From Haliscomenobacter hydrossis DSM 1100 (GTDB lineage Bacteria > Bacteroidota > Bacteroidia > Chitinophagales > Saprospiraceae), in contig NC_015510.1 of the NCBI RefSeq assembly GCF_000212735.1, forward strand, positions 3,250,315-3,314,314: a stretch of DNA of 64,000 nucleotides, given 5' to 3'. The notes below the pieces were generated by a model. The model did no database searches. It saw nothing but the letters and a program-made list of their open reading frames with translations, and was not told the DNA's origin. Numbering within the stretch: position 1 is the stretch's first letter; every line of letters begins with the position of its first letter. A program made the position numbers and the translations under genes. This document shows, in pieces, positions 22,994 through 39,757 of the stretch.

Positions 22994-24247
22994 ATGAGAA
23001 GAGTTGTTGTAACCGGGTTGGGAGCAGTTACCCCCATTGGTAATACCCTGTCGGCATACCAGGAAGGTTTACAGAAAGGAGTCAGCGGTGCAAATCTGAT
23101 CACACTGTTCAATGCTTCAGAATTCAAAACCCATTTCGCGTGTGAAGTCAAAGACTTCAATCCCGAGGTGGCTATTGATAAAAAAGAAGTTCGAAGAATT
23201 GACCGTTTCACCCAATTTGCCCTCGTGAGCTCCGATGAGGCCATGATTGATTCGGGTTTGGCGGCTCAATTGGAGGAACTCAACCCCGATCGGATCGGCG
23301 TTATTTGGGCATCCGGCATCGGTGGATTGCGTTCTTTGGAAGAAGAAATTGAAACCTTTACCTCCGGCAATGGTACTCCGCGCTACAATCCGTTCATGAT
23401 TCCCAAGATGATTGCGGACATTGCGGCTGGGCACATTTCCATCAAATACGGTTTTCGAGGCATCAACTACGCTACCGTTTCGGCTTGTGCCTCGGCATCT
23501 CATGCCATCATGAATGCCTTTGATTACATCCGTTTGGGCCGCAACGACATCATCGTTACCGGAGGTTCCGAAGCGGCCGTAACCAAAGCGGGCATTGGTG
23601 GTTTCAACGCCATGAAAGCCCTTTCTACCCGCAACGACGACTTCAAAACCGCCTCCCGGCCTTTCGACAAAGACCGCGATGGCTTCGTCTTGGGTGAAGG
23701 AGGCGGCGCTTTGATCCTCGAAGCATACGAGCACGCCAAAAAGCGCGGAGCAAAAATATACGCCGAAATTGTGGGCGCAGGGGCTACTGCCGACGCCTAT
23801 CACATTACTGCACCACACCCGGATGGTTTGGGCGCGCTGAATGTGATGCGCATGGCGCTGGCCGATGCCAACATGAATCCGGAAGAAATTGATTACGTAA
23901 ACGTACACGGCACGTCTACTCCTTTGGGGGACATTGCCGAAACCAAAGCCATCAAAGGGGTATTTGGGGAACACGCTTACGGCCTCAACATCAGTTCGAC
24001 CAAATCCATGACTGGTCACCTCCTGGGTGCAGCGGGTGCCATTGAGGCCATTGCGGGTATCCTGGCCATTAAAGGTCAATTCATACCCCCAACCATCAAT
24101 CATTTTACCGACGATCCAGAAATCGACAATCGCCTGAACCTGACCTTCAACGAGGCTCAGGAACGTAAAGTCCGGGCGATTTTAAGCAATACTTTTGGCT
24201 TCGGTGGCCACAATTCGTCTTTGATCTTTAAGCAGTTCGCAGAATAG
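22994..24247 (+). CDS. fabF: 3-oxoacyl-ACP synthase II (FabF)
   Basis: 417 residues, normal length for KAS II. It starts MRRVVVTGLGAVTPIGN. The catalytic triad is visible: Cys in TVSACASASHAIM, His in YVNVHGTSTPLGD and His in STKSMTGHLLGAAG. It ends with the thiolase-fold strand SNTFGFGGHNSSLIF. It condenses malonyl-ACP with acyl-ACP during chain elongation and controls temperature adjustment of unsaturated chains in other bacteria. It lies between acpP and rnc on the same strand. Confidence 0.98.
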   Translation: MRRVVVTGLGAVTPIGNTLSAYQEGLQKGVSGANLITLFNASEFKTHFACEVKDFNPEVAIDKKEVRRIDRFTQFALVSSDEAMIDSGLAAQLEELNPDRIGVIWASGIGGLRSLEEEIETFTSGNGTPRYNPFMIPKMIADIAAGHISIKYGFRGINYATVSACASASHAIMNAFDYIRLGRNDIIVTGGSEAAVTKAGIGGFNAMKALSTRNDDFKTASRPFDKDRDGFVLGEGGGALILEAYEHAKKRGAKIYAEIVGAGATADAYHITAPHPDGLGALNVMRMALADANMNPEEIDYVNVHGTSTPLGDIAETKAIKGVFGEHAYGLNISSTKSMTGHLLGAAGAIEAIAGILAIKGQFIPPTINHFTDDPEIDNRLNLTFNEAQERKVRAILSNTFGFGGHNSSLIFKQFAE

Positions 24248-24457
24248 GACTGTAAGTAGTCTATTGAGAAAAGAACGAAAACTACCCATTTCCCAGTGAT
24301 ATGAACTCATGTTCAGCAATTTTGGCAATTCACACGATTGCTAAACATGATTTACCAGGCAAAACCCAATTTGGTTTTGTTGTTTTTACCCGCTGTAGTT
24401 TCTTTCTTTTCATTCTACTCTTTACAGGCCGTTTCTGTACGTACTTTATAATCAGCA

Positions 24458-24495
24458 CCCTGCAAAAATTTGACAGCCATCAAATTTTTGCAGGG
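24458..24495. terminator. Strong hairpin between fabF and rnc
   Basis: CCCTGCAAAAATTTGA (24458-24473) is perfectly complementary to 24480-24495 around a 6-nt loop, 31 bp before the rnc start. It could be a terminator, or an RNase III-processed site in the rnc leader as known in other bacteria (inference). Confidence 0.55.
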
Positions 24496-24526
24496 CCGTA
24501 TTATTTACACTCTTAACTAAACGGCC

Positions 24527-25273
24527 TTGCGGTTATTATTCAAATTTTACAACTATTACCTTTCGCCGGATAAGGAATTGGCCCGTAAGCTCAAGCCTTT
24601 ATTGGGGTACACCCCGGCGAATCTGGGTATTTTCAAGTTGGCGTTTTCCCACAAATCCACCAGCAACTCCGGGGATAAAGCCTATCCCATGCAAAACAAC
24701 GAACGCCTGGAATACCTGGGCGATGCGGTACTCGGTACCATCGTTGCGGAGTACCTCTTCAAAAAATACCCGGATAGCAATGAGGGCTTCCTCACCAAAA
24801 TGCGCTCAAAACTGGTGAAACGAAAATCGCTCAACCGGATTGGGGACAAAATGGAGCTCGAACTCCTGCTCTCCGAGTACAATACCACCCGTCTCAGCCG
24901 GTCCATGCTGGGCAACGCCGTAGAAGCCCTGGTGGGTGCCGTGTACCTCGACCGGGGTTACGCCTCCACCAAAATCTTCGTGATCAACCACATGCTGCGC
25001 AAGTATGTCAACATCCACGAACTCGAACGCCTCGACGACAACTACAAGAGCCAACTGCTGGAATGGTGTCAAAAAAGTGGCAAAAATGTAACCTACAAGC
25101 TACTGGCCCGTTATAAGTTCGAAAAACGCGATCGCTTCAAAGTCGCGGTCATGATCAACAACAAACGGGTAGCCACCGCCGACGATTTTAATAAAAAAAG
25201 CGCCGAACAAATGGCTTCGGAAAAAGCCATGATTGCCTTGGGCATCCTGATTGAAGAAGAAGACGAAGATTGA
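24527..25273 (+). CDS. rnc: Ribonuclease III
   Basis: 248 residues starting at a TTG codon (24527); no ATG gives a full N-terminus. The endonuclease signature NNERLEYLGDAVLGTIVAEY lies at ~58-77. The second acidic site is in LGNAVEALVGAVYLDRGY. The C-terminal dsRNA-binding domain spans ~170-245 (DNYKSQLLEWCQKSGKNVTY, KKSAEQMASEKAMIALG). It cuts double-stranded RNA in rRNA and mRNA maturation. The weak start codon and the large hairpin just upstream may hold expression low, possibly by self-cleavage. It is third in the acpP-fabF-rnc cluster. Confidence 0.97.
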   Translation: MRLLFKFYNYYLSPDKELARKLKPLLGYTPANLGIFKLAFSHKSTSNSGDKAYPMQNNERLEYLGDAVLGTIVAEYLFKKYPDSNEGFLTKMRSKLVKRKSLNRIGDKMELELLLSEYNTTRLSRSMLGNAVEALVGAVYLDRGYASTKIFVINHMLRKYVNIHELERLDDNYKSQLLEWCQKSGKNVTYKLLARYKFEKRDRFKVAVMINNKRVATADDFNKKSAEQMASEKAMIALGILIEEEDED

Positions 25274-27889: not shown

Positions 27890-28118
27890 TGTGTCTCTCT
27901 TCGCCGTAGGCGAAAAAGTGTGCTCCCATGATGAAAAAAAATTACTACCCCCGGGAACTCTTCCCCAACGCTACTGGTTATTGGGGCATAACCTTCAAAA
28001 ATGATGATTCTTCACAACATTCGCATCCAGATTCAACGACAACGTTAATCGCCACTTCGCTCAGGCATCCGCCGCTGAAGTGAAGCAGTGGCGATCTATT
28101 TATCCTCCATTTCAATTT

Positions 28119-28358
28119 CTTGGTGTAGCTCAATTGGTTAGAGCACTGACCTGATACGTCAGCGTGTGTTTGGATTTCTGGTTCGCAAGCGAAAATGAGC
28201 TGAAATTTGCCCCAGTGAGGCGCGAAAAGCGGAGTGTAGCAGCGCTACATGAGCATTTTCGGAACGAAACTGGGGTGAATTTTAGCCATTTGTAGCGCGA
28301 AGCAGAAGTCCAAACACACGCTCAAGGGCTGGAAGTTCAAGTCTTTCCATCAAGACCA
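28119..28358 (+). tRNA. tRNA-Ile(GAT) interrupted in its variable loop by a 160-bp element
   Basis: The acceptor stem CTTGGTG (28119-28125) pairs with CATCAAG (28348-28354) with one G-U. Discriminator A and encoded CCA (28356-28358) follow. The D arm is GCTCAATTGGTTAGAGC. The anticodon arm CTGAC-CTGATAC-GTCAG (28146-28162) has anticodon GAT at 28153-28155 and A37. The T arm GGAAG-TTCAAGT-CTTTC (28331-28347) is intact. Between the anticodon and T arms, where about 5 nt are expected, lie 168 nt, nearly all a single rod-like inverted-repeat element. All conserved arms survive, so the gene may still be used with a giant variable arm or after removal of the insert. C1-G72 is unusual for Ile. Confidence 0.78.
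28162..28321. repeat. 160-bp inverted-repeat element with GAGGCG/GAACGA core (copy 2, inside tRNA)
   Basis: The ends CGTGTGTTTGGA and TCCAAACACACG pair. The arms continue almost without break (ATGAGCTGAAATTTGCCCCA against TGGGGTGAATTTTAGCCAT) to an internal loop GAGGCG facing GAACGA. An inner hairpin closes with GTGTAGC-AGC-GCTACAT. Length and core match the elements at 1542-1701 and 61518-61675 although the outer arms are unrelated. Confidence 0.78.
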
Positions 28359-28386
28359 CTGGCTTGTTGCGCAACAAGCCCAACCA

Positions 28387-28458
28387 TGCGCGGTAGTATA
28401 AGGGTTAGTACGTGGGACTCATGATCCCAAGTTAGGAGTTCGAATCTCCTCTGCGCGT
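28387..28458 (+). tRNA. tRNA with anticodon CAT (Met type)
   Basis: The acceptor TGCGCGG pairs with CTGCGCG (28451-28457) using a T-G pair at position 1:72 and one inner G-U. The D arm is GTAT-AAGGGTTA-GTAC, the anticodon arm TGGGA-CTCATGA-TCCCA and the T arm AGGAG-TTCGAAT-CTCCT. The anticodon reads CAT. Position 37 is G rather than the A expected for Met or Ile2, and the discriminator is T with no encoded CCA, so amino-acid identity should be treated with care. Confidence 0.8.
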
Positions 28459-28476
28459 CTATTTTGAGTTTCTTTT

Positions 28477-28548
28477 TGACCAGTCGTCCAATGGTGAGGA
28501 TACTTGAGTTTGAGTCAAGTGATGTAGGTTCGAATCCTGCCTGGTTAG
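28477..28548 (+). tRNA. tRNA-Gln(TTG)
   Basis: The acceptor TGACCAG pairs with CTGGTTA (28541-28547) with the U1-A72 pair typical of Gln; the discriminator is G. The anticodon arm CTTGA-GTTTGAG-TCAAG gives anticodon TTG (28510-28512) with A37. The T arm is GTAGG-TTCGAAT-CCTGC. It lies 18 bp after the CAT tRNA, likely in one transcript. Confidence 0.93.
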
Positions 28549-28602
28549 CAAATTTGAGTTGAAAAATAAAGATGATTGCCAACATGGCCGAGACCAATAC
28601 AC

Positions 28603-29587: not shown

Positions 29588-30061
29588 ATGCAAATACCAG
29601 GCACACATAACACAGAAGATTTCTTCTTCACCGCCATCACTTGGCATGAAGTCAGTGCTAAAATCATATCTACTAATCTTGATTTAATCCGCCAGTCCCT
29701 CAACCAGAATATTTCCCTTCGTTCCTACGGAACAGGCGTCTACGAAATTGCCTATATCTTTGTAGCGTTGCGCCCTACCAACACCTTACACGGCGAAATG
29801 ATGCGCTACTACAAAGCCAAAAAGGAAATCTTCATTCAGAAAAAATTACCTTTTGCATTGGTCGAAGCGTATTCCGAAGCCGAAGTACTCATTTTAATGG
29901 CCAATACCTACCTACAAAGCCTACAGGATTTGAGCAAGCGCAAAATCAGCGATTTTGATAGTGAACAACTGTGTACCGATGTCCAGCAATTGTTTCAAGC
30001 AGAAGGATGGTTGACTGTGCTGGAAACTTCCAACCCTATTCCTTGGCGTCTTTCCACCTAA
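29588..30061 (+). CDS. Unknown small cytoplasmic protein
   Basis: 157 residues, family not recognised. The sequence is mostly helical (EVSAKIISTNLDLIRQSL, YSEAEVLILMANTYLQSLQ), with a central strand (TGVYEIAYIFVAL) and a conserved-looking TNTLHGEMMRYYKAKKEIF. No signal peptide. It lies 14 bp behind the membrane-anchored gene and overlaps the convergent AIPR gene by 26 bp at the 3' ends. An immunity- or antitoxin-like partner role would fit the layout but is unsupported by motifs. Confidence 0.7.
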   Translation: MQIPGTHNTEDFFFTAITWHEVSAKIISTNLDLIRQSLNQNISLRSYGTGVYEIAYIFVALRPTNTLHGEMMRYYKAKKEIFIQKKLPFALVEAYSEAEVLILMANTYLQSLQDLSKRKISDFDSEQLCTDVQQLFQAEGWLTVLETSNPIPWRLST

Positions 30062-32381
30062 ATCCATATTTTTCTGCGGTTCTCAAATTCTGTCTGGCAA
30101 GAAATTTATTCCTGTCAGTAAGAGGCTTTCTTCCTTCAAGAATGTCTACCATAAATTGATATTTGTAAGCATCAAGTCTTTTATTTTTCTTGTCCCATTG
30201 AACGATTATATTAATCAAATCTAAAGTGATTTCAACTTCCTCTTTTGTGCTCCTATTATGATCTTCGTTAAAGAAATCATCCATATCAAAAAATAGTTCA
30301 GGGTTGAGGTTTACAACAATGTTTAGTATAGCTTCTCCCTGATTTCTCTCAATATCAGTAATATTTCGATTGTCTCTTATTTTACTGCTTAAAGTAGAAA
30401 CTATATTACATTCATAATGAGAGAGATTTTGAGTTTCTCTGCCCCAGTCTTCCACTTTTTTCCAGGTTTTTATGTGGATTGACTTTAATCTTCCAATAGA
30501 GGCTTCGATTACAGCTTTTTGAGTGTCATCTTCTTCTAATTTTTTTCTCTTTTCGGATGATTTGTTTTCTAAATCTAAATTTAAATCCTCTAAATCAATA
30601 TTGAAATCCTCATTCTTTATAGCATTCCAGCATTCTTCCTTTTTTGCCCACTCACCATATAAAGAACCAGGAGCTTTGGATTTTATATGATTTTCAATCT
30701 TTGACATTATTTCATAAAGTTTGCTTTTAAGAGCACCACTAAGGGATTGCTGTTTCCATATTTTGAATAGGTCGAGCCTGTAATCCAGCTTAAAACCTAA
30801 CCAAGCTAATGAATATGGTACAGTGATATAACGCATATCTCCAATAGCATTTGGTTTTACACCATAAATTTTTTCACCAGTAGAAAATAAAATTGCTTTG
30901 GCTATAGCGTCTTCAAACCAAATATTATCAGGCTTAATACTAAAGTTGTAATTCAGAAATTGGGCATAGTTTTTCTGACCTCCCCTTACGACAATATGTG
31001 GGCCTATTACTAATTTCTTTCCAAAATAGACCTCCATGTAAGAATTAATATATTTCGCTAAAGATTCTTTGGTAAACATTTGACTTCTAGGATTCTGTTT
31101 GTCAAACTGCTTTCTTTTTGATGGTGTTATACCAGAACGAATACGCTCATTTTTGTATTGACCTCTTGAGCGCTCAAAGAACCAACGTGTTTGATTATTT
31201 TCACCTGAAATAGGGGGAGCCCAAGTTGTTCTTGATAGCTTTTCCAATAAAACGAGATTTTCACGATTTGAGCTTAAATCAGCTGTAGAAACTTTATTTT
31301 GCGTATTTGCGTATTCAGCAATTCTTCCTACGATTTTGGAAAAATTACTTCTGTCCTTTACGATAGTGAGTTTAACCGGGACAAAGACATTAGAAATATC
31401 CACTTTATCCTTTTTCCAAGTATGATAAATAGACGCTGTGGTTTGACCACCATTTACTATTTGAAAATCCTTAACTTGACCAAATGCCTTTCCTTGATTA
31501 TTGGGTAAATCTATTATGGTTACCTCTTCTGCAGTTGCTGCAATACCATTGTTAAAGGCCATAAACATATGTTGTTCTGTCAGAATCGTATTTCTTATGC
31601 CTTTATTTATTTTCCCTGTGAATTGAAGAAATGACCGTACATTTTGCTCTAGTAATCTTGATCCGTATTGCTCATACATATCAACTAAGGCAATACCAGG
31701 AATAATTGCCAACCAGGATTGGTAATGAGAATTTTCAATTTCATTGGCAATACAAGGAACTTTATGACCTAATTGTTCAAAATTGATTTCGATTGGAACT
31801 CTTGACTTATCCGAAAGATTAAAGAGGTAATTAATGTCAATTATTCTGAAGTAAACAGGATACCCTGCGATAGTTTCAGAAATCTTCAAATCCGCCTTTA
31901 CTTCTCCATTGGTAATTAAAAAAATATTTACTCGAGTCAAATACTCCTTTACTTCTGGAATATTGGCTAAGGTATGAGCAAGATCAAATATCTCGGAACT
32001 TTCTTCTATCTCATTTACGTAATCTTTATAAACTGCATTTCTGAAAAATTTTACAGCCCTTTCAATTGCTTTTTCTGCTTCACCTTTTGTGGTGCTTTGA
32101 ATTGTGGATCCACCTCCATTATATAGAGTCACAAACAAATCAAGTGTTTCGTAATTTTCATAAAGTGAGTAGCCATTGATTTTATGCTCAACACCTCTTT
32201 TACTAATCTTTTCATCAAAACATACACGGTAATTTTCAGTTTCGCCAGCTTCAGATAAAAAAGAAAGGGCTAACTCTGTAAAAACCTGTTCAGGATTTGT
32301 TCCTTCTTCTTCTGAAATCAGAATGGCATTTATTTCCTCTTGTAGGTCGATGTAAAACTGGCTTAGTTCTTTATTTCCCAT
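30036..32381 (-). CDS. AIPR-family (abortive infection phage resistance) protein
   Basis: 781 residues. The AIPR core is clear: RLLEQNVRSFLQF, INKGIRNTILTEQHMFMAFN followed by NGIAATAEEV, and KDFQIVNGGQTTASIYHTW (~260-345). AIPR proteins occur in phage-defence loci; their biochemical action is poorly known. It overlaps the end of the PD-(D/E)XK gene by 11 nt, so it is the last gene of the Z1/MORC operon. Codon use is AT-rich like the rest of the operon and unlike the flanks, suggesting lateral transfer. The gene appears intact, although IS insertion upstream may affect its transcription. Confidence 0.93.
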   Translation of the reverse strand: MGNKELSQFYIDLQEEINAILISEEEGTNPEQVFTELALSFLSEAGETENYRVCFDEKISKRGVEHKINGYSLYENYETLDLFVTLYNGGGSTIQSTTKGEAEKAIERAVKFFRNAVYKDYVNEIEESSEIFDLAHTLANIPEVKEYLTRVNIFLITNGEVKADLKISETIAGYPVYFRIIDINYLFNLSDKSRVPIEINFEQLGHKVPCIANEIENSHYQSWLAIIPGIALVDMYEQYGSRLLEQNVRSFLQFTGKINKGIRNTILTEQHMFMAFNNGIAATAEEVTIIDLPNNQGKAFGQVKDFQIVNGGQTTASIYHTWKKDKVDISNVFVPVKLTIVKDRSNFSKIVGRIAEYANTQNKVSTADLSSNRENLVLLEKLSRTTWAPPISGENNQTRWFFERSRGQYKNERIRSGITPSKRKQFDKQNPRSQMFTKESLAKYINSYMEVYFGKKLVIGPHIVVRGGQKNYAQFLNYNFSIKPDNIWFEDAIAKAILFSTGEKIYGVKPNAIGDMRYITVPYSLAWLGFKLDYRLDLFKIWKQQSLSGALKSKLYEIMSKIENHIKSKAPGSLYGEWAKKEECWNAIKNEDFNIDLEDLNLDLENKSSEKRKKLEEDDTQKAVIEASIGRLKSIHIKTWKKVEDWGRETQNLSHYECNIVSTLSSKIRDNRNITDIERNQGEAILNIVVNLNPELFFDMDDFFNEDHNRSTKEEVEITLDLINIIVQWDKKNKRLDAYKYQFMVDILEGRKPLTDRNKFLARQNLRTAEKYGFRWKDAKE

Positions 32382-32967
32382 TTGAATCCAATTTTATTTC
32401 GCTAAACAAAGATTGTTGATCTATTTTCCATTCTTCCGATTCAGATAGAACAATTGAGTATTTTACATCCCCGACACCAGTGGGAATTTGATTTTCAGTG
32501 ATTCTAGGAAAATTTCCAGAAACACGATAAAGGTTTTCCTGACGGATAGTATATCCAACCTCATCGTATAATGCCCTATGAACTTCATAGTAACCAGCTT
32601 CCAGTAGTTTCATTTTTAACAAATTTGAAGCAATTGTGCTGTCAATCAATAGTTTTGAAACTTCGTCAATAAGAGTGTTTAATGATTCTCCATGACCAAT
32701 CCTGACCTCTAGTGAGAGATGATAAAGGAATATTTTTTCAACAAGGGAATCATCTAATTGCCTTTCACTAGCGATATGAATTTTCTGATGATTATTTCCA
32801 TGAGTAGTTTTTACCTCTACGCCCCAACTAGAATACTGAAAATCTTGGATTGATTTTTCGGGCCCTAGCCAAGATTGGATACAATAGTTTTTATCAGATG
32901 AATTATTTAAGAAAATACGCAGAAAATAAATTTCTCCATAAAGACCTCTCTGAGCTTCGTCGGATAA

Positions 32968-33838
32968 GAGTATGTTCGGAAATTTTGTTTTGCCTAGCGT
33001 TCAAACTCTCCTCAAGATTCGGTAAATATTGGAGCAAATCGTCCAGCTAACCGAATTTTGTATGGTTCGCTCATAATCTTTGACTAATCTGCGGCAAAAA
33101 TTACTCCAGGAAATGGTTCTTTCGATGACCCAACGAATGGGAATGACCTCGAATCCTTTGGCGTCTCCGATCTTACCTCTGATCTCAAAATGAATGCCCA
33201 GATCGGTTGCCATGACCGAAAAAGTACCTTGATAGTGTTGATCAGTGAGAAACTTTTGTAGCCTTGGCCACCAAAGTTCCATTCGGCTTTCGTCAAAAAG
33301 CAGGCTTGCTCCGTCAGCATCATATAGGTTCGCAGCATGGGCACATGCGTCCCAAATACGTCCTTCTGAATCAGTCAAAAGTTGCCGTTTGCGGCCGTTA
33401 ATTTTTTTATGCGCATCAAATCCGCGATCAGTCCCGATCATAGGTGCTAATTTAACACTCTGGCTATCAACTAACAAAAGTGAAGGCTTGGCCTCTTTCC
33501 CTTGGTTAATCCGATCCAACTCATTCAACGCTGCGTTGAGGCGAAATAGGGTTTGGTCTGCTGTCCACTTTTGAAAATAGTAGTATACAGCATTCCATTT
33601 CGGGAAATATTCGGGTAGATTACGCCATTGAATGCCTGTACAAACTATAAACCGGATTGCATCCATTACGTCTCGTAGATTTATCTCCCGTTTTCTTTGC
33701 ACAGGTAAGTATTTTGCGATAACTTCCCATTGAGGATCGGTCATGCGCTGGTACTTTCCAGTCATTGCTCTTTAATTTTGGACAAACTAAAGATAGCAGC
33801 CGATCCTTATTTTTCAACAAAAAATTTTGAACATACTC
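32968..33838 (-). mobile_element. IS5-family insertion sequence, 871 bp
   Basis: Terminal repeats GAGTATGTTCGGAAATTTTG (32968 inward) and GAGTATGTTCAAAATTTTTT (33838 inward) match closely. A 3-bp TAA flanks both ends (32965-32967, 33839-33841), as expected for IS5-family elements that duplicate TNA. One intact transposase gene is present. Confidence 0.92.
33001..33765 (-). CDS. IS5-family DDE transposase
   Basis: 254 residues. The N-terminal DUF4096-like domain (YQRMTDPQWEVIAKYLP, FIVCTGIQWRNLPEYFPKW) is typical of the short IS5/IS1031-type transposases. The catalytic region has LLLVDSQSVKLAPM (Asp), YDADGASLLFDE (second Asp) and IPIRWVIERTISWSNFCRRL (Glu with YREK-like Arg). The frame is complete with no programmed frameshift needed. 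Confidence 0.94.
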   Translation of the reverse strand: MTGKYQRMTDPQWEVIAKYLPVQRKREINLRDVMDAIRFIVCTGIQWRNLPEYFPKWNAVYYYFQKWTADQTLFRLNAALNELDRINQGKEAKPSLLLVDSQSVKLAPMIGTDRGFDAHKKINGRKRQLLTDSEGRIWDACAHAANLYDADGASLLFDESRMELWWPRLQKFLTDQHYQGTFSVMATDLGIHFEIRGKIGDAKGFEVIPIRWVIERTISWSNFCRRLVKDYERTIQNSVSWTICSNIYRILRRV

Positions 33839-34244
33839 TAAGCCCTGTTTCCCTATTTTTTCAAATAAGGACTGCCATTTGGCTAATCTATCGAGCAACC
33901 TTTCTACTAAAGCTTGCTCGGTAGTTACTTCCGATACTCCAAAAATCAAATCTTCACTAAGCGTAGAAAATATATCTTTATGTTGTTTGTTGAGCAAAAG
34001 AATTAATAAAAACTTCTTTGAGTTATCTCCTTCAATAGGAAGTGTTTCGACCTTAATATCTTTAAGTCTATTCCACCGACCTTCATCAAAAGGAAGTAAA
34101 GCATTTATTTTAAAGGCAATGCACCTGAGTTTTTCTGGAATCTTTAGAGCAATAAAAGCGTCAGGTAGTATTTCTGCCGCATACCGCTTGTAAAGAAAAG
34201 TAGAATAAACAGATGGAGTGCTTTCCAAATCTGCCCATATTTTT

Positions 34245-37028
34245 TCAATCTTGTTCATCTCCATAATCTTCAAAATCTTCTTCAGTTACATCGAATCTAT
34301 CCAACAACTCTTCGTTGACGGCATACGATACTGGTGCGTTGAAGTTACTTTTGGGAAAGCTTATTGCATAGCCTACAAAAGGATTAGTACCCTTTGGCAC
34401 TGCTGTTTTATCCTTGATACTTTCTTCTTGGTCAAGTAAATAAATCAATAGTAAGGGGTTTTTAGGGTCTCTTAAAACATTTCTAACTAACTGTCCATTT
34501 GGATATGTTGCTTCACCTTCTTTTTTCCTAGAAAGATTAGTTAATTCCATAGCTCTAGATTCTTCCTCTGGAGAAAAATCAATAAATTCATCAGAAGGAC
34601 TAATAATGTGTGATTTTCTCAAATAATAAATCTGTTCGTTTGAATTCTTTTCATCTTCGGTTCTTTTCCATTGGCCAATTGGAATATTATTACCATCAAC
34701 TTCAAATTGCGAGTAGTTTTTAGCATTTGGTTTAGACATTAGTGCAATTCGCCATGCAGTCAATTCATTATTTCGCAACTGAGCAGAAATAAATTGAATT
34801 AACTTTCTAGGCTCTGCTCTTTTCAAGTTTTCAACGGATTGAATTCCTTCAAAAAAGTTGATTACTTGGTCAGCAGGAATATCATACCAAACAAATGTAT
34901 TTGGTTTGGACACGTAATTGGAGGGGAGTGTAGATATAAATTTTTGAGTGCTACCAAAATTACTATCGATTACGGAGGGATCCTTCTTAAATTCATAAGA
35001 TTCAACTAATCGACCTGCCCAAGAAATTTGAACAGTTGTAGCTGACCGCATTTTATTGGCTGCCGAAATTTGCAGAACGCCAGGATGCGTTCGAACTTTT
35101 AGAGCATATTGCTCTGGAGTAGACCCAGCATCATTTGACATATAGTCAAACTCCTCTCTAAGCTCTTCAGACGCTTGCGTAATATGACAAAACCATTCAT
35201 TTAATTCTCTGCTCGTGAAAAGCCGACATAAATCAATATAACCACCACGATAACCAAACCAACGCCCCATTTGCATCAGAGTATCATACATCTTAGAGGC
35301 GCGCAAATAATAGCTTATGGAAAGACCTTCTAATGTCAATCCTCTTGATAACTTATTACCTCCAACTGCAATTACAGATAGCCCATTTTTGTGGTCAAAA
35401 TAGTCAAGAGCTTCACCTGAACCGCCATGGATTGATTTGACTTTAATGCGTGAAACAGCATCATTTAAATGCTGCAAAACTTCGCTCCATTTATGGATTT
35501 GTATTTGCGAATCTAGGCTTTTGAGTTCGGAATCAATAATTTGTTGTGAAACTGAAACAAAAGATTTGTAGCCATTCTCATCTTGGTCATAAGTTTGCTT
35601 GAACTCCTTGATAACTACATGGTCATTTTGATCAATTCCTCTTCTGTAATAATTGAATTGGTTCGATACTAGTTCTGCTATATGATCCTGCCAACGCTTA
35701 AAACGAGATACATGAACCAGCATTGAATTATGGACGTTTGTTTGCCCTCTTAATCGCCTAATAGCACAAGTAATGATGAAACAACGAATGGCTTTTTTTA
35801 AGGATTCAGGAAGTGAGGAAGGTAACTGATCATCCTTTTTATGTTTATCTGGTACAAAATCTCCGTAATCATCTATTCTCGTTACAATTGGGAGGACACT
35901 ATCAGACGTTTCATCTTCTTCTAAAGGGCTAAAACCAAAAACTTTTTCTGGGCCAATATAATTTGAAGGCGCAGGGATGTTCTTTATAAAGTTCCTTGGA
36001 AATAAGTTTTGGTCATCCAGGGGAATAAATATATTGGCAAATGGAGTTGCCGTATAACCTACGTATGCATTTTTTCCAAAAAGGTTTAATATTTGAGTAA
36101 TCCAGCCATTGATGGAACTTTGCTTTTCAGGATCATTTGAAATATTAATAGAAGCGTTATCTGCTTCGTCATCGATCAATAATAATGATTTGTTTCTAAT
36201 GACTCTACTAAGTTCTGTATCATCACTTGCTTGGGCAGCCAGCCAATGATATATTCGTCTAAGCACGTTCGGGTTCTTCTTTATTATAGCAACAATTGGT
36301 TCTTTTGTGTCAAAGTTCAGACCTATTGCATTTGCAGCGCCTTGAGTAAAATCGCCCTTCTCAAGACTTGAGGTCAATGAATGTGCCACATTTGTTTTTC
36401 CAAATTCAGGTTTGCCTACACCAATTTTAATGCTCTGTTGGTTAAGTGCTCTTGTATGCTGAGTATCAAATCCTAAAAAACTCTCATCTATTCTTAGTTG
36501 GGTTTGGCTTCTCAAATTGTTATGTATCCCAGCCATAACTATAATCAAACCAAAGCCTGCATCCGCGGCTTTGCATATCAACCCAGTATAATTTGCAGTT
36601 TTCCCGGATTGTACTTGACCAACCACCAAACCTTTTTTGTTTACCTTAATTTTCAAAGTTGGATCAAAAAGGTTATCCAAAATATCATTTGTCAAGTCAT
36701 TAAGACGATCTACAATTTCTGGTGCAAATCCTTTTTCATCTTCGAGGTATTGTCTGTAATTTCCCCAAAACCCATTAGAAAAATCAATTGAACCTTTTTT
36801 TTCATCTAGCCAAGGATTATTTTCCTCTTTTTTTACAATTGACCGCCATTCGTCTTGACTAATCGTAAATAATTCTTCTATTTTTCGGATTAACATTTGC
36901 CTGCTATCCGGAATAGGTAATCCCATTTTTAGAAATGTATCAACTGCATTTTCAATCTCCTGAATGGTTACAGAAGTTTTACCCATTAATAATTGACGGA
37001 TTATTTTGATTGGATCTATGTTACTCAT
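34245..37028 (-). CDS. Z1-domain helicase-like ATPase
   Basis: 927 residues. A superfamily II-type ATPase core is seen: Walker A GQVQSGKTANYTGLI (~137-151) and Walker B LLLIDDEADNASIN (~290). Later motifs include YVGYTATPFANIF and GGNKLSRGLTLEGLSISYYL, then MQMGRWFGYRGGY. The last pair is the Z1 domain hallmark. Z1 proteins are found with MORC-type ATPases and DNA methylases in restriction-like defence operons (described by Iyer, Abhiman and Aravind). The gene overlaps the GHKL ATPase gene by 8 nt and the PD-(D/E)XK gene by 14-29 nt. All motifs are intact. Confidence 0.95.
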   Translation of the reverse strand: MSNIDPIKIIRQLLMGKTSVTIQEIENAVDTFLKMGLPIPDSRQMLIRKIEELFTISQDEWRSIVKKEENNPWLDEKKGSIDFSNGFWGNYRQYLEDEKGFAPEIVDRLNDLTNDILDNLFDPTLKIKVNKKGLVVGQVQSGKTANYTGLICKAADAGFGLIIVMAGIHNNLRSQTQLRIDESFLGFDTQHTRALNQQSIKIGVGKPEFGKTNVAHSLTSSLEKGDFTQGAANAIGLNFDTKEPIVAIIKKNPNVLRRIYHWLAAQASDDTELSRVIRNKSLLLIDDEADNASINISNDPEKQSSINGWITQILNLFGKNAYVGYTATPFANIFIPLDDQNLFPRNFIKNIPAPSNYIGPEKVFGFSPLEEDETSDSVLPIVTRIDDYGDFVPDKHKKDDQLPSSLPESLKKAIRCFIITCAIRRLRGQTNVHNSMLVHVSRFKRWQDHIAELVSNQFNYYRRGIDQNDHVVIKEFKQTYDQDENGYKSFVSVSQQIIDSELKSLDSQIQIHKWSEVLQHLNDAVSRIKVKSIHGGSGEALDYFDHKNGLSVIAVGGNKLSRGLTLEGLSISYYLRASKMYDTLMQMGRWFGYRGGYIDLCRLFTSRELNEWFCHITQASEELREEFDYMSNDAGSTPEQYALKVRTHPGVLQISAANKMRSATTVQISWAGRLVESYEFKKDPSVIDSNFGSTQKFISTLPSNYVSKPNTFVWYDIPADQVINFFEGIQSVENLKRAEPRKLIQFISAQLRNNELTAWRIALMSKPNAKNYSQFEVDGNNIPIGQWKRTEDEKNSNEQIYYLRKSHIISPSDEFIDFSPEEESRAMELTNLSRKKEGEATYPNGQLVRNVLRDPKNPLLLIYLLDQEESIKDKTAVPKGTNPFVGYAISFPKSNFNAPVSYAVNEELLDRFDVTEEDFEDYGDEQD

Positions 37029-38502
37029 TTGCTAAGAAATTAATGTACTGTGGATAAAAATTAAAGGGCTCGGTATTTAGTATTTTTGCCTTTGCTTTTT
37101 CAACAGATAAGCCGCTGGAGACAAATCCATCAAAAAGCTTTTGCATTGCTTCTTGAATGGCATTATTGTCTACTCCTTCAAATGGTTGCCCATGTGGTTT
37201 TTCGTTTTCGTTCTCTTGCAGTGTGATTAAAGGAACAGGAATAGTTTCCTCGATAAACTGAATTACTTTTTCAAGTTCTTTTTTTAAATCTCCAGACTTG
37301 GAAAGTAATTCATACACTAAAGGATGGTTCCGATTGATTTTATAAAAACGTTTGCCATGTCTTGCCCTTTCTTCCCAAAAGGGAAAATATTCATCGGAAG
37401 CTAATTTTCGTTTAAGTACTTTACCCTTGTGCCGATACACTTCCACGGCTTGATTCCGAACATCTTTTGCAAGAGCTAAAATTTGTTCACGATAAATTGA
37501 GGGTGGTCTGGCAAAAGATTTTTTGATATCGATTTGCCACTCACTATCAAAATGGTTAGGCAAATCAATTTTAATCCTACAAAGGTCGTAATGCGGTTCT
37601 CGTTTAAATAGCCCTAGCCAATCGCCAGCGACTAAAAGCCTACGATTTCGATAAACATAAAAGCCTTGATGAGCTGTCCAATTATCCTTTGGACCCTTTC
37701 CGTAGTTGTATTGTTCTGCTGAAAGTTTAGAACGATGTGGCAAAACAAACCCTTTAATTCTAATAGAATCACCCTCTAGTCTCATTTCAGGCTTAGTTTG
37801 TAGGCCATCCATTCCTATCATAAAAGGATCCCAAGATTTAATCAGACGATCACGGAAATAAATTTTTAAACCATCATCTATATATTTGTGAAAAACCATA
37901 GATAAGTGGGATTTGAGGGAGTCCATGACGCCCAAAAACTTACTTTTTGCTTCTTGATTGTCTTCTGATGTACCTCTTGTAAGCCTATCTAAATCCCACC
38001 AAATAATACAGGTGCCAGTTTTTAAAGATTCAACCTTTTTAATCCAATGGTCTTCGTTTGGAATAAATCGAACTAACTTCCACGCTTTTTCTTTGGTTAC
38101 ATAGTCTAAATCCCAAGTCCAAAATGCAGGTTTGCAATCAGACGCCTTTGAAACAACTGTAAATTTTTTTGATTGTGAAAAGGAAGCTGTCTTCAATCCC
38201 AATCCAAACCTGCCTAAATCGTCACTAGCTCTCTCATCTAGAGGGTTTTTACTGCCAGGGCGCATGGCCTGGATAAGTTCATCATTACTCATTCCAATCC
38301 CATCATCCAGAATAGAAAGAGTTGTGTTCGAACCGCTCCAATCGTAATCTATCCAAATGTTCTTAGATTTAGCAGCTACGGAGTTGTCAATAATATCAGC
38401 AATTGCAGTTTCGATGGAATAACCTATTGCTCGAAAGGTTTGAATCATCGAACTAGCTTCTGGCTCAGCAGAAGTTGATTGTATGTTAGCGTAATCAATC
38501 AT
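37021..38502 (-). CDS. MORC-like GHKL (Hsp90-type) ATPase
   Basis: 493 residues. The Bergerat ATP-binding fold shows IGYSIETAIADIIDNSVAAK (Asn of motif I), LSILDDGIGMSNDEL (motif II) and DLGRFGLGLKTASFSQSKKF (motif III). The ribosomal-S5-like domain follows (~220-330), then a charged C-terminal region. These proteins resemble MutL/MORC ATPases found in Z1-linked restriction-modification operons. It overlaps both neighbours by 8 nt, so translation is coupled. It probably acts on DNA as an ATP-driven clamp, by analogy to MORC. Confidence 0.94.
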   Translation of the reverse strand: MIDYANIQSTSAEPEASSMIQTFRAIGYSIETAIADIIDNSVAAKSKNIWIDYDWSGSNTTLSILDDGIGMSNDELIQAMRPGSKNPLDERASDDLGRFGLGLKTASFSQSKKFTVVSKASDCKPAFWTWDLDYVTKEKAWKLVRFIPNEDHWIKKVESLKTGTCIIWWDLDRLTRGTSEDNQEAKSKFLGVMDSLKSHLSMVFHKYIDDGLKIYFRDRLIKSWDPFMIGMDGLQTKPEMRLEGDSIRIKGFVLPHRSKLSAEQYNYGKGPKDNWTAHQGFYVYRNRRLLVAGDWLGLFKREPHYDLCRIKIDLPNHFDSEWQIDIKKSFARPPSIYREQILALAKDVRNQAVEVYRHKGKVLKRKLASDEYFPFWEERARHGKRFYKINRNHPLVYELLSKSGDLKKELEKVIQFIEETIPVPLITLQENENEKPHGQPFEGVDNNAIQEAMQKLFDGFVSSGLSVEKAKAKILNTEPFNFYPQYINFLANE

Positions 38503-39757
38503 TGCCTTTGAGTGCTTTTAAAATTTCTTTGCCAATTATTTTTGCCATTAAAGGAGGGACCGCATTTCCAATCTGTTTGAATGCAGGAGTTCTATTAAAG
38601 CCTTCTTTTTCTCCTTCAAAATAATAGTCATCTGGAAAAGATTGTAAACGAGCAGCTTCTCTTACAGTGATCGACCTATTTTGTTCTATATCCGGATGAA
38701 TAAAATAATGCCCATCTTTTGCAATATGGGCAACTACAGTTTGTGAGTAAGGTAAATTAGCTGCCACAACTTTAAATCGGTCATAGAATGAAGTGCGATT
38801 TTGATGCGTTTTTAGTCGTTCTGGTAAGTCATTATAGTTTAATCTCTCTTGTTCTTTTTCCCATTTCTGAACGGCAATTTTGTAAATCTCTTTGTCTTGT
38901 TCACTATGTGGTCTAGCAACATGTTGCGTTAAAACATCTATACCATTACGTAAAGAGTGAAATTCTAGGTATTCAGAAGTTTTGGTCCTATATTTTAAGA
39001 ATCTGTCTATTCCTTGTCCAGCCTTTATTATTGGTAAATCGTTTAATAAATCCGCTACAAGGTAGTTGCCCTTAATCTTTATATCTTCAAGATCTGGAAT
39101 ATTTAATTTTGCACTTTCTTGCCATCCTAGAATAATAATTCTCTTCCTGTTTTGAAGCACACCAAAGTTTATCGCTTCAATGGTAAACAATTTTATTTGA
39201 TAGCCTTTTGCATTAAAAAGCTTCTCCATTTCAGAAAGATAATGCCCTTTTTTTGCCGATTTTAGCCCTAAAACGTTTTCAAAAACAAACATTTTTGGCT
39301 GATATTTTTCCAGATAAGCTGAGTATTGGACAAATAGGTAGTTTCTTGGATCGCCCTCCATTTTAGTTTTCGACCTTGACCTTCCTGCTACAGAATACGC
39401 TTGGCAAGGCGGCCCTCCAATGATCAAATCCACCGCCCCTTTTCCTAAATAACTGTCAATTTGGTTAAAAATTAAATTATTGTTTTCGTCCCCAATAGAA
39501 AGATTTATAACCGATGCTAAAATTTCGTTTGGAACATTATCGTAAAGTTCTGCACGAGTAATTTCTCCTTTAAGATATGAAATGTAGATTTCGTGTCTTT
39601 TATTGGACTTTAAATAATGATACGCAGCCCTAGTCTTTAGAGTATTACATGCGGATTTTTCAAGTTCAACATGTGCAATCGGCTCAAATCCAGCTTGAAT
39701 AAATCCTTCTGAAAGCCCACCCGCTCCTGCAAATAAGTCAATGAAATTATAATCCAT
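38495..39757 (-). CDS. C5-cytosine DNA methyltransferase (Dcm-type)
   Basis: 420 residues with the ordered motifs of m5C methylases: I FIDLFAGAGGLSEGFIQAGF (~4-23), IV GGPPCQAYSVAGRSR with catalytic Cys (~115-129), VI FVFENVLGLKS, VIII QNRKRIIILGW and X FKQIGNAVPPLMAK near the end. The recognition region lies between motifs VIII and IX. It marks host DNA in the Z1/MORC defence operon. Its start codon shares one base with the stop of a 51-codon upstream frame. The gene is intact although the nuclease of the operon is broken. Confidence 0.96.
   Translation of the reverse strand: MDYNFIDLFAGAGGLSEGFIQAGFEPIAHVELEKSACNTLKTRAAYHYLKSNKRHEIYISYLKGEITRAELYDNVPNEILASVINLSIGDENNNLIFNQIDSYLGKGAVDLIIGGPPCQAYSVAGRSRSKTKMEGDPRNYLFVQYSAYLEKYQPKMFVFENVLGLKSAKKGHYLSEMEKLFNAKGYQIKLFTIEAINFGVLQNRKRIIILGWQESAKLNIPDLEDIKIKGNYLVADLLNDLPIIKAGQGIDRFLKYRTKTSEYLEFHSLRNGIDVLTQHVARPHSEQDKEIYKIAVQKWEKEQERLNYNDLPERLKTHQNRTSFYDRFKVVAANLPYSQTVVAHIAKDGHYFIHPDIEQNRSITVREAARLQSFPDDYYFEGEKEGFNRTPAFKQIGNAVPPLMAKIIGKEILKALKGND

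Follow-up and report, generated by a model that had tools for sequence, protein, structure and literature searches.

A tRNA-Ile(GAT) gene of Haliscomenobacter hydrossis with a MITE-like palindromic element in its variable loop and probable loss of tRNA function

The genome of Haliscomenobacter hydrossis DSM 1100 (G000; 8,771,651 bases, 4 contigs) has a trio of tRNA genes, Ile-Met-Gln, the first of which is interrupted by a long palindrome. Coordinates are positions in the window, the whole stretch of 64,000 nucleotides that was analyzed (C1:3250315-3314314), unless a contig is named. The features at and near the trio are:

27927..28118, + strand, leader upstream of tRNA-Ile, common to three species, with a hairpin AATCGCCACTTCGCT...AGTGAAGCAGTGGCGAT recognized by eye
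28119..28161, + strand, 5' part of tRNA-Ile(GAT): acceptor 5' strand, D arm, and anticodon arm through base 42
28162..28321, + strand, palindromic MITE-like element, 160 bp, GCGTG...CACGC, 65 predicted pairs
28322..28324, + strand, right copy of the 3-bp target-site duplication TCA
28325..28358, + strand, 3' part of tRNA-Ile(GAT): remaining variable loop, T arm, acceptor 3' strand, discriminator A, and CCA
28387..28459, + strand, tRNA with a CAT anticodon, second gene of the trio, 73 of 73 bases the same in G004
28477..28549, + strand, tRNA-Gln(TTG), third gene of the trio, 6 of 73 bases different from G004
32968..33838, - strand, insertion sequence of 871 bp with an IS4/5-type transposase (DUF4096 and DDE_Tnp_1), terminal repeat GAGTATGTTC, and a TAA/TAA duplication

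Outside the insert, the tRNA-Ile gene reads as complete. The acceptor stem CTTGGTG/CATCAAG pairs at 7 of 7 positions (G-T counted), the D stem is GCTC/GAGC, the anticodon stem CTGAC/GTCAG encloses the loop CTGATAC with GAT at 28153-28155, the T stem GGAAG/CTTTC encloses the loop TTCAAGT, and the discriminator A is followed by an encoded CCA at 28356-28358. The gap from base 43 to the T stem is exactly 168 nt, so the variable region has neither class I (4-5 nt) nor class II dimensions. Reading and folding bear out the original prediction that all arms and the CCA are intact on either side of a 168-nt separation, and that a 160-bp inverted repeat occupies the variable loop. The rod of about 75 bp that it proposed is shorter; folded alone, the insert forms 65 pairs at -95.7 kcal/mol.

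The interrupted gene is called neither by ARAGORN in default mode nor by Rfam at the gathering score, and its 5' half reaches 23.8 bits in Rfam, under the cut-off of 29. With introns allowed, ARAGORN reports for the same span a tRNA-Ala(cgc) with a 143-nt intron, which we take as a misplacement of the insert. The check that had been proposed, calling the tRNA with and without the insert, was made with ARAGORN, which finds tRNA-Ile(gat) once the element and one target copy are removed. The fold of 28119-28359 has a predicted energy of -116.6 kcal/mol versus a shuffled mean of -68.8 (z of -10.8; 0 of 200 shuffles as low), and adopting a cloverleaf with the rod costs only 3.7 kcal/mol relative to the predicted minimum. 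Predicted pairing probabilities are about 0.32 for the D stem, 0.05-0.31 for the anticodon stem, and 0.13-0.17 for the T stem. This folding test carries little weight because the predicted minimum of the uninterrupted tRNA-Ile of G004 is likewise not a full cloverleaf.

The empty site is found in the sister species G004, in which the same Ile-Met-Gln trio (locus L079) has the uninterrupted relative that the original prediction proposed to look for, a 77-nt tRNA-Ile (66.4 bits) with a 5-nt variable loop. Where G000 reads GTCA, the 160 bp, and then TCAAGGGCT, G004 reads GTCAGGGGCT; the difference comprises a 3-bp TCA duplication and one adjacent G-to-A change. TCA flanks the insert on both sides, the left copy at 28159-28161 being the end of the tRNA 5' part, and 12 of 12 terminal bases of the insert pair, as expected of the terminal inverted repeats of a MITE. 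Because the inserted unit is 160 bp plus a 3-bp duplication, tRNA base 43 (28162) is now the element's own first G. The four arms and the cloverleaf persist because the target lies at the border of anticodon stem and variable loop and because this G replaces base 43. Instead of a giant arm in need of tolerance or removal, as first envisaged, the comparison points to a dispersed mobile palindrome, flanked by a TCA duplication and absent from the G004 tRNA.

The insert is a copy of a dispersed transposon-like family of this genome, also present in sister species, and neither an intron nor a native arm. A search of the own genome with the insert gave at least 47 matches (self and reverse-strand matches included; the best 40 of 66 first-look candidates were scored), and among the matches scored, 13 besides the query are nearly full length with 81-92% identity. 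Dispersed copies together with the empty site in G004 are features of MITEs. The core motif, with up to 3 mismatches, is present at 38 places in the own genome versus 0 for a reversed control. Core relatives also occur in other genera (G020, G023, and G025), and the exact 37-base core occurs 0 times in viral contigs. A match of the insert to MIR5998 in Rfam (33.6 and 31.2 bits on the two strands, versus a cut-off of 180) was rejected as a mere long-hairpin match.

We aligned 56 copies (alignment A1); 40 belong to the own genome, and the remaining 16 to sister species, to other genera, or to one of three named MAG contigs. Copies were gathered by similarity to the whole element or core and filtered at no more than 9 mismatches in a 39-base core with a fixed AGC; conservation of the 39-base core therefore comes partly from the selection of rows, and bases outside the core and covariation of the arms are unaffected. 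Filtering removed two nearly full-length copies of the own genome that show, by eye, no exact duplication (L009 and L014), six copies of relatives (L091, L093, L098, L102, L103, and L108), and L096, which is the cut copy of G002. L050 was removed by hand because it is a cut copy of L027, and other omitted loci repeat rows already in the alignment. The copies on MAG contigs (L085, L086, and L087) are identical over 120 bases to copies of G001 or G004 and are thus probably from the same genomes. The border script seems to have misplaced the ends of L028 and L139.

By the border rule, 50 of 56 copies are 159-161 bp in length, yet their ends differ (GAGTGTGTTTGG, GAGCTTGTTTAA, GAGCATGTCTAAA, and others). 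An exact 3-bp duplication flanks 22 of the 56 copies, 18 of which are among the 40 own-genome copies. The duplicated triplet is TTA in 14 cases, TAA in 5, and TCA, CAA, and TGA in one each; at three shifted registers, serving as a control, exact duplications number 3, 0, and 1 of 56. The 34 copies that have no exact duplication count against transposition. None of the 40 own-genome copies is wholly inside an ORF of at least 120 aa, and 7 overlap the end of an ORF. When flanks were joined at fixed 160-bp borders, a tRNA spanned the junction in 1 of 56 copies, the one in tRNA-Ile, and a preference of the family for tRNA genes was thus not seen. Copy L009 is located 5 bases upstream of a tRNA-Val gene.

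The consensus fold of the 56 copies has 60 pairs, 46 of which have changes on both sides, and 96.4% of cells pair versus 77.9% in shuffles. The covariation score is 0.505, compared with 0.162 for shuffled alignments and no more than 0.110 for slid partners. The sequences scored in this way also served to derive the consensus structure, and some effect of relatedness remains after the controls. In the copies of G003, which were filtered out, the core stem shows one more paired change (TTATGC/GCATAA). Covariation alone is no proof of function because conversion between the arms of a palindrome may keep them alike. The asymmetric internal loops are nearly invariant, however, and conversion should erase such loops. 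We view this as evidence, not proof, that a folded strand, of RNA or of DNA, is under selection. Terminal repeats vary within the family, but its palindromic elements have in common a size of about 160 bp, a single covarying fold, and a core that is nearly invariant and includes asymmetric internal loops. The family makes it possible to ask why palindromic repeats retain a single fold and core when their transposon ends differ.

The insertion sequence at 32968-33838 is 4.6 kb from the insertion in tRNA-Ile. The T-N-A duplications of the element resemble that of this insertion sequence, and the termini of the two are similar, not the same. Among the matches listed, none is an insertion sequence with the element's exact terminal repeat, which counts against the route proposed here, and a scan allowing 3 mismatches gave 186, close to the 152 of the control. 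We suggest that a transposase, presumably of the IS4/5 type and acting in trans, moved the 160-bp non-autonomous palindromic element; the element landed in the variable loop of tRNA-Ile(GAT) with a 3-bp T-N-A target duplication. The insertion sequence at 32968-33838 illustrates what sort of transposase could do this. The insertion sequence itself cuts off the reading frame of a DUF4420 gene in an Mza-like defense operon (30036-39757), which also has a methyltransferase gene and matches to MzaB, MzaC, and MzaE.

The insertion is common to two species, not private to one strain: the tRNA of G002 is interrupted at the identical base, and the element's left half follows, with 74 of 76 element bases identical up to where the contig ends; the right half was not found in G002. 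Across G000, G002, and G004, the tRNA 5' half (28119-28162) is identical at 44 of 44 bases, and from 28326 on, the tRNA is identical to that of G004 at 33 of 33 bases. When the stretch to the right of the element was searched against 100 genomes including its own, strong matches were limited to G000 and G004, and five other genomes had weak matches of 24-62 bases, mostly inside one tRNA. Neither the right part nor the tRNA-Ile pattern was found in G001 (86% complete) or G003, the two other members of a genus of five genomes. The six differences in tRNA-Gln between G000 and G004 (L079) are all in or beside the anticodon arm, and its stem still pairs.

The trio and leader are 92-94% identical between species versus 81% for a stretch with ketoacyl synthase and RNase III genes (22994-25273), which suggests horizontal transfer or strong constraint. 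The leader (27927-28118) has blocks that are invariant across three species and lies in differing gene neighborhoods. Between G000 and G002, the tRNA 5' half has 0 differences in 44 bases and the leader has 26 in 190 aligned bases plus 69 gap columns; invariant blocks of the leader alternate with variable ones and its outer edge is possibly non-homologous, so this contrast supports no conclusion on purifying selection after insertion. The neighbors of the trio are a gene for an M90 peptidase and one for an HTH protein in the H. hydrossis window, an ORF of 151 aa and an ORF with a weak EAD11 match under the cut-off in G004, and, in G002, an upstream Lrp/AsnC-type regulator and candidate defense genes (PDC-M30) about 3 kb from the tRNA. 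As for a phage or plasmid origin, there were no plasmid matches, and six phage records each match one tRNA at 75-78% identity.

The trio is accessory and probably redundant, and the cell could presumably dispense with it. Rfam identified at least 45 tRNAs in the genome (best 150 of 402 candidates scored), which were then read by ARAGORN. They include one tRNA-Gln(ttg) and three CAT tRNAs besides those of the trio, and it is these that make redundancy of the trio likely. Against dispensability of the interrupted gene, no other Ile(GAT) was visible among the same tRNAs, nor was any Ala(TGC), and a scan of the genome for the tRNA-Ile pattern found this gene and two other places, at neither of which ARAGORN reads a tRNA. 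Genes for tRNA-Ile(GAT) and tRNA-Ala(TGC) usually sit in the spacers between 16S and 23S rRNA genes. The fetched stretches ahead of the two 5S genes contain 4.5 and 5.0 kb of N, and one account gives the type strain 2 rRNA operons (PMC3156403). We infer that Ile(GAT) and Ala(TGC) of this genome lie in masked 16S-23S spacers, since the cell should need Ala(TGC) and both operons have long stretches of N. Another cluster (G000:C1:7884375-7885222; L064) contains tRNAs that duplicate isotypes present elsewhere, and its tRNA-Leu(tag), at 74 nt, is too short for the usual long variable arm.

With considerable confidence, we favor a history in which an IS4/5-type transposase acting in trans inserted a MITE-like element into a probably redundant tRNA-Ile(GAT) gene, whose product is most likely non-functional. 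A transcript carrying the 65-pair rod should be a substrate of RNase III, and loss of function is the most likely fate of the interrupted tRNA. Two observations speak against inactivation: the arms are undecayed where comparable, and two species have the insertion. The refuting condition set at the outset, under which the gene would be a dead pseudogene, came out against simple decay, given the intact relative and the undecayed arms where comparable. If the tRNA is dead, the locus is a clean case of a spare tRNA hit by a MITE-like element and a warning that function does not follow from intact arms.

It is unlikely, in our estimation, that RNase III cuts the rod and the unligated halves stay joined via the acceptor stem, tertiary core, and rod stub as a usable tRNA. 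Such processing is consistent with the predicted 65-pair rod, the 3.7 kcal/mol separating the cloverleaf with rod from the minimum, the absence of decay in comparable parts of the tRNA, and an RNase III gene encoded in the window itself (24527-25273). It also has a parallel in rRNA intervening sequences, which one source describes as excised without ligation and with function kept, by RNase III in several bacteria (PMC4990558). Weighing against it are the low predicted probabilities for the D, anticodon, and T stems and the presence, elsewhere in the genome, of tRNAs with the anticodons of the other two genes of the trio. More doubtful again is that a two-piece tRNA, the counterpart of fragmented rRNA, has been kept in two species with its rod removed by RNase III without ligation, and that the element family, with its covarying arms and nearly invariant internal loops, is perhaps selected as RNA for being harmless inside structured RNAs.

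We consider it very unlikely that the tRNA is functional while keeping the rod in the form of a giant variable arm like that of class II. The four arms and CCA are all intact, and isoleucine identity determinants are placed by one source in the discriminator, anticodon, position 37, stems, and D loop (PMC9976931), but a duplex of 65 pairs should be cut by RNase III and the arm far exceeds class II length. A literature search, covering titles and abstract openings of the best matches, returned no insertion in a tRNA variable loop, no such giant arm, and no paper joining MITE, Saprospiraceae, and inverted repeat. Least probable is an intron or self-splicing element, for which the precise interruption of the tRNA gene speaks, but no intron family, such as group I or II, is among the matches of 28100-28380 to Rfam at E values up to 10, the position is in the variable loop, and dispersed copies with target duplications lie outside genes. 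Were the tRNA alive, contrary to the inactivation that we favor, it would be a tRNA that a mobile element has split in two or given a giant arm; we know of no earlier one.

Among known systems, MITEs are described as having terminal inverted repeats and target duplications, and transcripts of Correia elements as cut by RNase III (PMC10969869). Like the MITE-like palindromic repeats (Correia, ERIC, RUP, and Rickettsia palindromic elements), the H. hydrossis elements are short, repeated, and palindromic and occupy many insertion places. They differ in that the family keeps nearly the same length, fold, and core despite different ends and that one copy sits in a tRNA gene. With IS4/5-type insertion sequences, represented by that at 32968-33838, many copies of the family share GAG...CTC termini and the 3-bp T-N-A duplication, but the element has no transposase, and an exact partner was not among the matches listed.

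Intervening sequences of 23S rRNA resemble the insert in being stem-loops within a structured RNA gene, the remainder of which is foldable, as described in PMC4990558. Here, the host RNA is instead a tRNA, and any processing or function of its transcript is hypothetical. Class II tRNAs (Leu, Ser, and bacterial Tyr) likewise have an additional arm separating anticodon stem and T stem, but that of the interrupted gene has 65 pairs and belongs to a tRNA of isotype Ile.
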